DNA from: Paraflavitalea soli
Lineage (GTDB): Bacteria > Bacteroidota > Bacteroidia > Chitinophagales > Chitinophagaceae
DNA length: 64,000 nt
Reading direction: 5' to 3'
Assembly (NCBI RefSeq): GCF_003555545.1
Contig: NZ_CP032157.1
Coordinates: 3,910,546-3,974,545 of the forward strand
A program made the translations under genes and the position numbers. The notes below the pieces were generated by a model. It worked only from the letters and a program-made list of their open reading frames with translations, made no database searches and was not told the origin of the DNA. This document shows positions 26,873-32,953 of this stretch, one piece after another; position 1 is the stretch's first letter; each line of letters begins with the position of its first letter.

Positions 26873-27067
26873 TTATTTCTTCGTTGTGTCCACTGCATGA
26901 GCAGTAGTATCTACAGCCTTAGCAGTAGTATCTACAGGAGCAGGAGCAGTAGTATCTGCAGTAGCAGGTGCAGTTGCAGTAGTATCTTTAGTTTCTGTAC
27001 CAGTTCCACCGTCATTGCAAGATGCTACGAATGCGCCAATTGCTAAAACTAACAGGAGCTTTTTCAT
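26873..27067 (-). CDS. Thr/Ala-rich small lipoprotein
   Basis: 64 aa. Leader MKKLLLVLAIGAFVASC with Cys17 lipobox, then a low-complexity mature part of DTTA/VDTTA repeats (TADTTAPAPVDTTAKAVDTT). Such entericidin-like or spacer lipoproteins are common in Bacteroidota; function unknown. The repeats are imperfect 7-9-residue units. Confidence 0.75.
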   Translation of the reverse strand: MKKLLLVLAIGAFVASCNDGGTGTETKDTTATAPATADTTAPAPVDTTAKAVDTTAHAVDTTKK

Positions 27068-27274
27068 TTGTACCGTTTTTTGTTTTGTTAACAGATGATT
27101 TAAGGATTAATACGCGAAAGAGAAAAAGGTAACCTCCCCCTTTAAAAAAATTTGTAAATATTTTTTAAACCCCGGGAACACAGTACTTTGCGCAGGATTG
27201 ACCCGCTATTCCTGCATTTAGCCGGATTTTTGGGTTACTTCTCATTAATTTGGGTATTAATAATACGGTTTTAA

Positions 27275-27844
27275 GTGAAAACAGATCCCCGGGAAATAGC
27301 TTTATTGGAAGGACTGGCAAAAGATGACCGACAAGCCATTGAGACCATTTACAAGCAGCACTATAATATGGTGCAGGCCTTGATAATCAATAACAATGGT
27401 TCAGCAGACGATGCACGGGACATTTTCCAGGAAGCCATGATCGTATTGTATGAGAAAGCCCGGTCCGGAACTTTTGAGCTCAACTGCCTGTTAAAGACCT
27501 ATATCTATTCCGTTTGCCGCCGGTTGTGGCTCAAACGGCTTCAACAGCAGCAAAAATTCGTTCCGGAAATGGATAGCCTCAGCGAAACCGTAGCGGTAGA
27601 AGAAGAACTGGAGATGCATGGACAGCGAAATACCGAATTCCAGATGATGGAGAAAGCCATGCAACACCTGGGCGAACCCTGCCGGAGCTTGTTGGAAGCT
27701 TTCTATATCCAAAAAAGGAATATGCTTGACATTGCGGGCCATTTCGGGTACACTAATGCCGATAACGCCAAAAACCAGAAATACAAATGTTTAATGCGGT
27801 TAAAGAAGCTATTCTTTGCCGCCTACAAAAACAATACACCGTAA
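27275..27844 (+). CDS. ECF RNA polymerase sigma factor
   Basis: 189 aa from GTG 27275; an in-frame TAA lies immediately upstream. Sigma region 2 is visible (HYNMVQALIINNNGSADDARDIFQEAMIVLYEKAR, with YIYSVCRRLWLKRL). Region 4 has CRSLLEAFYIQKRNMLDIAGHFGYTNADNAKNQKYKCLMRLKKLF. Its stop codon overlaps the next ATG (TAATG), so translation of the two genes is coupled. The partner at 27844 has an anti-sigma-like N-terminus. Confidence 0.88.
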   Translation: MKTDPREIALLEGLAKDDRQAIETIYKQHYNMVQALIINNNGSADDARDIFQEAMIVLYEKARSGTFELNCLLKTYIYSVCRRLWLKRLQQQQKFVPEMDSLSETVAVEEELEMHGQRNTEFQMMEKAMQHLGEPCRSLLEAFYIQKRNMLDIAGHFGYTNADNAKNQKYKCLMRLKKLFFAAYKNNTP

Positions 27845-28953
27845 TGGAAGAAATGCAATTACTGGATGCTGTAGAGCGCTACCTGGCCAATGAAATGCCT
27901 GCTGAAGAGCGGAATTTCTTTGAACAATTGCGCAAAACCAATCCGGAAGTAGACCAAATGGTGGTAGAACACTCTATGTTCCTCCAACAGATGGATCGCT
28001 TTAGTGATTGGAAACAATACAGATCCACCCTCAACGAAGTACATAGCCACCTGGTGGATACCGGTTCCATCAAAGACAAAGCGCCCAAAGCCACCATCGT
28101 TCAGCTTTGGAAGAAATATCAGCGCGTGGTAGCCGTAGCCGCGTCCATTGCCGGCATTACTGCCCTTACCATCAGCGCCATCGTTTATTATTTCGCTCCC
28201 AAACCTGTCTCCGAGATCCGCCTCCTGTCACAGGAACTTGATAAGGTAAAAATTTCCCAGCAACGCACCGATCAGAAAGTGAACACCGCACTTATGGAAA
28301 AATCAGCGCCCTACAGGCCTGTAGCCAATCCTAAAAGTGGCGGCACCGGTTTCCTGATCGATGGCAAGGGATACCTCGTTACCAGCGCCCATATTGTGGC
28401 AGATGCCGACTCCGTATATATTCAAAATATCAAGGGCGATTATTTCAAAGTATCTACCTTGTATATTAATAAGCTGACTGATATAGCCGTACTCAAAATT
28501 GTAGACAGCCGTTATCAACCTGTCAAATCATTGCCCTATGCCCTGCAAAAGAACACCGCAGACCTGGGCGAAGAAGTATTTACCATGGGTTTTCCACGTC
28601 CCAGTTCCGAGATCGTCTACAATAAAGGTTACCTGAGCGCCAAAACAGGTTATAATGGCGATACCACTACCTATCAGCTGGCCATTTCTGCCAACCCTGG
28701 TAATTCAGGTGGCCCCATCTTTAACCATAGTGGTGAAGTGATCGGTATTCTCAGTGGCAAACAAACCACGGCAGAAGGAGTCATATTCTCCAGCCGTACG
28801 AAGAATATCTTTACGGCCTTGCATGAGATCAGGAAGGACAGTACCAATGAAGACCGCATTAAGTTGTTATTGCCCTCTTCCATTAAAGGCCTTGACCGTG
28901 TACAGCAGATCAAGAAGATTGAAGACTGCATGTTCATGGTGATACGTTACTAA
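27844..28953 (+). CDS. Membrane-anchored trypsin-like protease with anti-sigma-like N-terminus
   Basis: 369 aa from ATG 27844. Residues 1-90 are cytosolic, helical and charged (LLDAVERYLANEMPAEERNFFEQLRK), like the N-termini of Bacteroidota anti-sigma factors. A single transmembrane helix spans about 95-117. A coiled-coil-like linker (121-155) leads to a DegP/trypsin-like domain with triad His183 (TSAHIV), Asp213 (LTDIAVLKI) and Ser288 (NPGNSGGP); no PDZ domain is visible. The layout puts the protease in the periplasm and the anti-sigma-like part inside. It is coupled to the sigma gene by TAATG. Envelope-stress signalling is inferred. Confidence 0.85.
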   Translation: MEEMQLLDAVERYLANEMPAEERNFFEQLRKTNPEVDQMVVEHSMFLQQMDRFSDWKQYRSTLNEVHSHLVDTGSIKDKAPKATIVQLWKKYQRVVAVAASIAGITALTISAIVYYFAPKPVSEIRLLSQELDKVKISQQRTDQKVNTALMEKSAPYRPVANPKSGGTGFLIDGKGYLVTSAHIVADADSVYIQNIKGDYFKVSTLYINKLTDIAVLKIVDSRYQPVKSLPYALQKNTADLGEEVFTMGFPRPSSEIVYNKGYLSAKTGYNGDTTTYQLAISANPGNSGGPIFNHSGEVIGILSGKQTTAEGVIFSSRTKNIFTALHEIRKDSTNEDRIKLLLPSSIKGLDRVQQIKKIEDCMFMVIRY

Positions 28954-28977
28954 ACAACAATCGCACTTTCGCTGACA

Positions 28978-29013
28978 AGAAAGCTCCGCATTCAACCGCG
29001 GAGCTTTCTTTTT
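28978..29013 (+). terminator. Terminator of the sigma/protease operon
   Basis: AGAAAGCTCCGC and GCGGAGCTTTCT pair perfectly around ATTCAACC; TTTT follows. Confidence 0.9.
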
Positions 29014-32161: not shown

Positions 32162-32953
32162 CTATATGCTGGCAGCTAATTCCTCAGCCCTCAACTCTAC
32201 ATTAAATACGTACTCAAAATTGGCCTTTACTTTCGCTTTTACTTCCTCCATATCAAGGGTGTAGCCCAATTCTTTTTCCAGGGAAGTCACCTGTTTGTTG
32301 CGAATGCCACACGGAATGATGTAATCAAAATAAGTAAGGTCTGTATTGACATTGAAAGCAAAGCCGTGCATAGTCACCCAACGGCTGCAGCGAATGCCCA
32401 TAGCGCAGATCTTACGTGCCCGGCCCGGTATAGCCGTGTCCATCCATACACCCGTTTCGCCCTGAGAACGCTCTCCTTTTAGTCCGTATTCGGCCATGGT
32501 AAGGATAAATACTTCTTCGAGGTTGCGCAGGTATTTACCCAGATCCGTATAAAACCTTTCCAGGTCCAGGATGGGATAACCCACCAGCTGTTTAGGCCCG
32601 TGGAAAGTAATATCGCCCCCCCTGTTACTGGCATAGAACTCAATATTCCGCGCTACCCGCTCCTCTTCTGTGATCAGCACATTGGCCATATCCCCGCTTT
32701 TGCCCAGCGTATACACAGGCGGATGCTCTACAAATAATAAGTGGTGAGTAGTGGCCGGTCTCAGATTATCCGAAGCACCCTGAAAATCCGCGCTTTCAAC
32801 TGCCGATTGCCGACTGCCGATTGCCGACTCCCTGGCTTCCGTCTTCTTCTTCACGTTCTCTTTCAGGAGCTTTTCCTGGTAGTCCCAGGCTGCCTGGTAG
32901 GGCATGGCGCCCAGGTCTTCAAATAGTACCCGCTGTTTGTCTGAATTGGCCAT
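32162..32953 (-). CDS. lipB: Octanoyl-[acyl-carrier-protein] transferase
   Basis: 263 aa. Conserved LipB features: EHPPVYTLG, RGGDITFHGPKQLVGYPILDL, the MGIRCSRWVTMHGFAFNV segment and the catalytic Cys in PCGIRNKQVTSL with downstream Lys. The N-terminus is abnormal. Between LKENVKKK and THHLLFVEHPP lie about 32 residues (38-69) that LipB proteins normally lack; part of this stretch is encoded by a 14-bp tandem repeat. The enzyme moves octanoyl groups to E2/GcvH apoproteins; an E2 substrate is encoded at 15821. Confidence 0.93.
   Translation of the reverse strand: MANSDKQRVLFEDLGAMPYQAAWDYQEKLLKENVKKKTEARESAIGSRQSAVESADFQGASDNLRPATTHHLLFVEHPPVYTLGKSGDMANVLITEEERVARNIEFYASNRGGDITFHGPKQLVGYPILDLERFYTDLGKYLRNLEEVFILTMAEYGLKGERSQGETGVWMDTAIPGRARKICAMGIRCSRWVTMHGFAFNVNTDLTYFDYIIPCGIRNKQVTSLEKELGYTLDMEEVKAKVKANFEYVFNVELRAEELAASI
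32801..32828. repeat. 14-bp tandem repeat inside lipB
   Basis: TGCCGATTGCCGAC occurs twice without a gap (or TGCCGA(T/C) four times, period 7). The array lies in frame inside the extra N-terminal segment of LipB and encodes the AIGSRQSAVES part. Confidence 0.85.

Follow-up and report, generated by a model that had tools for sequence, protein, structure and literature searches.

DegS, the HtrA-type protease of the RpoE system of Escherichia coli, reads unfolded OMPs through its PDZ domain. Separate site-1 proteases that act on anti-sigma factors have been described (PMC10202637, PMC8103513), as have self-processing anti-sigma factors that carry no protease domain (PMC12203970; Bastiaansen 2015, as cited in PMC10202637). 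A sequence-only reading of the DNA analysed here stated that separate proteases degrade the anti-sigma factors known so far; this is overstated, since self-processing is known, for example the periplasmic autocleavage of RsgI (PMC12203970). In a survey of class I anti-sigma factors, just 6% of Bacteroidetes ECFs had such a factor nearby, which implies that ECF regulation in Bacteroidetes is poorly known, and the survey's main text makes no mention of trypsin or serine proteases (PMC7406223). Our literature search found no description of an anti-sigma/protease fusion architecture; the 2021 ECF re-classification might list one.

Here, we describe such a candidate fusion, encoded next to an ECF sigma factor gene within a window of 64,000 nucleotides (the whole stretch of DNA that was analysed). 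It is, in our view, about an even call that the two genes form an ECF sigma/anti-sigma envelope-signalling module in which the anti-sigma factor has its own site-1-type protease; the module points to a sensor of envelope stress that may switch itself on by self-cleavage. A built-in protease, if true, would merge the DegS–RseA pair into one protein, and the module matters for its presence in ten families, its promoter motif and its predicted targets.

Gene organisation and conservation

The locus contains the following features (window coordinates):

26873..27067, reverse strand: divergent gene for a predicted 64-aa lipoprotein (MKKLLLVLAIGAFVASC/NDGG..DTTAKAVDTTKK)
27107..27134, reverse strand: divergent copy of the predicted promoter motif
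27232..27260, forward strand: predicted ECF promoter of the sigma/fusion operon, GGGTTAC-N15-GTATTAA
27275..27844, forward strand: predicted ECF sigma factor gene, 189 aa; GTG start, stop TAA at 27842–27844
27844..28953, forward strand: predicted anti-sigma/TM/stalk/protease fusion gene, 369 aa; its ATG shares one base with the sigma stop (TAATG)
27844..28062, forward strand: putative anti-sigma domain, residues 1–73; AF2 helices 2–14, 20–32 and 34–73
28126..28194, forward strand: single predicted TM helix, residues 95–117, conserved AVAASIAGITAL
28207..28296, forward strand: stalk, residues 122–151; heptad at 125/128/132/135/139/142/146/149
28333..28794, forward strand: HtrA/trypsin-like protease domain without PDZ, residues 164–317; Ser288 codon at 28705–28707
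28873..28950, forward strand: conserved C-terminal tail, residues 344–369 (DRxQQIKKIEDxVFMVKxY)
28977..29013, forward strand: likely intrinsic terminator of the sigma/fusion operon, read from the sequence as a 13-bp inverted repeat followed by a T run

The product of 27275..27844 matched TIGR02937 (58.8 bits against a cut-off of 42.9, residues 21–178; NCBIfam) and, above cut-off in a Pfam scan, Sigma70_r2 (sigma-70 region 2); region 4 gave no separate match in that scan. ECF proteins comprise sigma-70 regions 2 and 4 only, in about 190 aa, and on its sequence this is an ECF sigma factor gene. GTG or TTG is the start of the sigma gene in nearly all genomes of the family, and the −10 element lies 2–17 bases before that start in all measured loci except L033 (45), where the start is probably misassigned. 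This short distance, seen here (27260–27277) and at the orthologous loci, suggests that the sigma mRNA is probably near-leaderless. The inverted repeat at 28977..29013 was not reported by the terminator scan. Elsewhere in the window, a LipB-like ORF at 32162–32953 is unusual in carrying an insert (EARESAIGSRQSAVESADFQG) close to the N-terminus.

From N- to C-terminus, the product of the second gene comprises the putative anti-sigma domain, a single TM helix, the heptad stalk and an HtrA-like serine protease that lacks PDZ. The coordinates, the one-base TAATG overlap, the TM helix and the triad H183/D213/S288 given in the sequence-only reading were all exact, and its central proposal, that a predicted anti-sigma domain and a protease share one polypeptide coupled to a sigma gene, holds across 10 families. 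The self-cleavage and the sensing of periplasmic misfolding that it also suggested are possible functions of the fusion, which has no PDZ like that with which DegS recognises unfolded OMPs. A 388-aa version of the ORF starting at 27787 was rejected, its additional codons being in frame but lying within the sigma gene; the intended start is the ATG at 27844. Above cut-off, the whole protein matched only trypsin-fold models in Pfam, with no RsgI autocleavage domain; FecR and FecR_C, present in L063, L067 and L068 of the same genome, were absent from it, and the scan returned no PDZ or other recognisable sensor domain. A full-length AF2 model (9-row alignment, mean pLDDT 51 in the protease part) was usable for helices only.

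Within the family, placed as Chitinophagaceae, 37 of 37 genomes (host included) matched the fusion and in each an orthologous sigma gene adjoined it. Sampling at the level of class and phylum gave nine further families with the fusion, all from the same class; one same-phylum match outside the class (G495) covered the protease only. The 79 genomes examined thus represent 10 families of one class, presumably Bacteroidia (phylum Bacteroidota), and the triad is intact in every one of them. The pairing first read from a single locus was borne out by this search across the phylum: sigma gene and fusion are kept together in all 10 families, the former directly upstream of the latter in 78 of 78 testable genomes, with the remaining one at a contig edge. 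None of the 24 genomes sampled in the order's remaining families gave a full-length match, which makes the distribution patchy, and none of the loci examined showed a split anti-sigma/protease form. A possible independent fusion elsewhere was rejected: the best plasmid match, an S1C protease of Ca. Manganitrophus (aligned over 22–306), has no annotated ECF sigma neighbour. The sigma/fusion pair is a conserved module.

The N-terminal domain

Residues 1–120 matched no Pfam model above cut-off; readings as Hemerythrin, Nucleoporin or SegE were discarded, the matches being below cut-off or inconsistent between members. A profile of residues 1–120 from 41 orthologues was searched against the same genome. 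Besides the fusion, all four matches with E < 0.01 were encoded immediately 3' of an ECF sigma gene, as were 8 of the 11 with E up to 10. The matched proteins carry RskA_C, FecR/FecR_C, TPR and TonB_C and, as far as profile and domain matches tell, are different sensor domains on one common N-terminal module.

An AF2 model of residues 1–96 has three helices (mean pLDDT 79). Its best PDB matches in Foldseek were RslA, MucA in AlgU complexes and RskA in the SigK complex, at poor E-values of 2–8; seven of the ten best matches, within that range, were ECF anti-sigma domains from anti-sigma complexes, and the weight of the comparison lies in that recurrence, not in the E-values. The anti-sigma look of the N-terminus, originally a judgement by eye, has thereby gained a family profile and weak support from fold comparison, with Pfam remaining silent above cut-off. 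Class I (ASD-type) anti-sigma factors are encoded with their cognate sigma factor, an arrangement found for the fusion in all testable genomes, and we infer that the N-terminal domain binds the sigma factor. Two members, L089 and L198 (f88), have open frames of 338–339 aa in which the profile match starts at anti-sigma position 40–43, pointing to a shortened anti-sigma domain, an alternative start or a frameshift.

The transmembrane helix and stalk

The TM helix is strongly conserved in sequence, with no variation at A99 or A100 among 41 sequences, and its K/R-rich N-terminal flank predicts an N-in, protease-out topology, which would place the protease outside the membrane. Beyond it, hydrophobic residues of the stalk recur in a clean 3-4 heptad, position 139 often being Gln, and the stalk forms a helix (122–150) in the low-confidence AF2 model. 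Because of this heptad, the stalk is a probable coiled coil through which the fusion protein is probably oligomeric. We identified no cleavage site, and the stalk is variable outside the heptad positions, which counts against a built-in site-1 protease. L128 was rejected as a conserved cleavage site, as it sits on a heptad core position and coiled-coil packing is more likely.

The protease domain and its relatives

Trypsin_2 (1.8e-23) and Trypsin both matched the protease domain above cut-off in Pfam. It is trypsin-like in sequence with a GNSGG motif, and the closest PDB chains found by phmmer were MucD, HTRA2 and DegS. Like HtrA/S1C proteases, it has by sequence a His-Asp-Ser triad (His183-Asp213-Ser288) in a trypsin-like domain. 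Members of S1C also carry at least one C-terminal PDZ domain, and the DegS type has a PDZ for unfolded OMP C-termini; the Pfam scan detected neither in the fusion and did detect PDZ in the paralogues L002 and L003.

A full-length profile compared with non-fused protease relatives gave a match extending into the tail, to position 364. The tail was considered as an autoinhibitory peptide and rejected, since the match of the non-fused relatives reaches it too; it is probably structural. Several non-fused relatives at other loci have starts that resemble signal peptides by eye. In a tree that included only ten non-fused relatives, the protease domains of the fusions grouped together as a single clade (support 97/93), a topology consistent with one fusion event. 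A close relative (G003) has two non-fused proteases of this subfamily (L051 and L052; 521 and 524 aa) that are almost identical and are encoded some 25 kb from each other.

Promoter motif and predicted regulon

A predicted ECF promoter motif that is new here, GGTTAC-N15/16-GTATTAA or a close form, precedes the sigma gene in 77 of 78 loci, as counted with a permissive pattern and, for L092, L093 and L096, also read by eye. Since these same genomes supplied the motif, its presence before sigma is not an independent test; its near-absence elsewhere and its recurrence before a CBM gene are. The small divergent lipoprotein gene was found in 70 of 78 genomes, and a second, divergent motif copy lies upstream of it in 50 of 73 loci.

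The exact form GGTTAC-N15-GTATTAA occurs at only two sites in the 8.44 Mb genome, both in this intergenic region. A looser pattern (spacers 14–18, TATTAA) gave nine genome sites against eleven in the control. Sites with one mismatch numbered 15, most of them inside genes, against 20 matches in the reversed control; with no enrichment and such placement, a large regulon in the host genome was rejected, and the predicted regulon there is essentially the protease operon and the lipoprotein. Across the 37 family genomes there were 61 exact sites, against 10 for the reversed-pattern control. Away from the locus, the motif recurs in other genera before a small AMPK1_CBM/CBM48-like gene: it or a close form precedes 8 of 8 family homologues (L175–L180, L183 and L184, in eight family genomes) and 0 of 2 homologues from other families of the order. 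It is also found before similar small proteins, exported-looking by eye, in two genera (L156, L165) and, possibly by chance, 225 bases before a gene that reads like a primary sigma factor (L174, in G028).

Discussion

On the likeliest reading, the initial cut in the anti-sigma factor is made, or gated, by the protease fused to it, and RseP acts afterwards. The N-terminal helical domain would keep the sigma factor at the inner membrane, while the TM helix and coiled-coil stalk, probably oligomeric, would display the HtrA-type serine protease on the periplasmic side. When an envelope signal arrives, the enzyme would cut its own or its neighbour's stalk, or would be freed from inhibition and do so. 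RseP would then cut within the TM helix, the anti-sigma fragment would be degraded and the freed sigma factor would transcribe its own operon and the divergent lipoprotein gene from GGTTAC-N15/16-GTATTAA promoters. At the level of sequence, this model is supported by domain order, the intact triad, operon coupling, the promoter motif with its sites and an RseP orthologue gene, which scored over cut-off at C1:8344447; a single TM helix together with an S2P in the genome is what a substrate of intramembrane proteolysis calls for. Two further HtrA-type proteases with PDZ (L002, L003) are possible site-1 enzymes and count against the built-in site-1 reading, as do the lack of a PDZ or other recognisable sensor and the poor AF2 model of the protease part.

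A self-metering homeostat is somewhat unlikely but is nevertheless a serious rival, made a real alternative by the very small predicted regulon. The protease would then be the output: with one anti-sigma domain per intact protease, consumption or turnover of the protease would free the sigma factor and yield more protease and lipoprotein, without self-cleavage. A host regulon of essentially these two targets fits such a scheme, as does the strict constraint on the catalytic triad, whereas the further motif sites in other genera, such as those before the AMPK1_CBM-like gene, speak against it and the strongly conserved TM helix is left unexplained. Unlikely, too, is the idea that the protease counts itself, its anti-sigma domains titrating a dedicated sigma factor that acts mainly on the protease operon and the lipoprotein; the lipoprotein would serve as ligand, decoy or sentinel, and one fused protein would be sensor, inhibitor, enzyme and set-point.

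We regard it as distinctly unlikely that a separate site-1 protease (HtrA/DegP-like or Prc) makes the cut while the fused protease has other substrates in the envelope, the fusion serving only to bring it under sigma control. The PDZ-containing proteases and RseP encoded in the genome would suit that arrangement, and the genome's other anti-sigma factors have no protease domain; however, the fusion is kept as one architecture throughout the 79 genomes, and mere co-expression should sometimes give split genes, of which none was seen at the loci examined. Loss of sigma inhibition by the N-terminal domain, which would leave the gene encoding only an operon-mate protease, would agree with the lack of a Pfam anti-sigma match in residues 1–120 and is very improbable given the profile matches to FecR, RskA and TPR anti-sigma factors beside ECF genes, the fold matches and the strict adjacency to an orthologous sigma gene.

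Comparison with known systems

Read as an anti-sigma factor with a built-in site-1 protease, the fusion can be set beside four groups of described proteins. With the RpoE-RseA-DegS-RseP system of E. coli and the AlgU-MucA-AlgW-MucP system of Pseudomonas, the locus shares an ECF sigma factor, a single-pass anti-sigma factor, a sigma operon with its own promoter, an HtrA-type protease (here predicted to be periplasmic) and the presence of an RseP-type S2P. It differs from both in that one chain without PDZ combines the predicted anti-sigma factor with the HtrA-type protease, the predicted regulon is very small and no RseB was seen in the operon. RsgI-type proteins of Clostridium and Bacillus are alike as anti-sigma factors that may make their own first cut, but RsgI has a periplasmic autocleavage domain and SigI as partner, where the fusion has a trypsin-fold protease and an ECF partner (PMC12203970).

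FecR, FoxR and IutY resemble the proposed system in having an ECF partner, RseP-dependent release and, in some cases, self-processing (PMC10202637), and the N-terminal profile of the fusion also picks up FecR proteins encoded in this genome. Unlike them, the fusion has neither FecR nor FecR_C and its operon has no TonB receptor, and the FecR proteins seen carry no protease domain. HtrA/DegP proteases (MEROPS S1C) share the trypsin-like sequence, the His-Asp-Ser triad and the GNSGG motif, whereas the fusion dispenses with PDZ and adds a putative N-terminal anti-sigma domain and a TM helix. Its own conserved C-terminal tail, which also sets it apart from HtrA/DegP, is common to a group of non-fused relatives.
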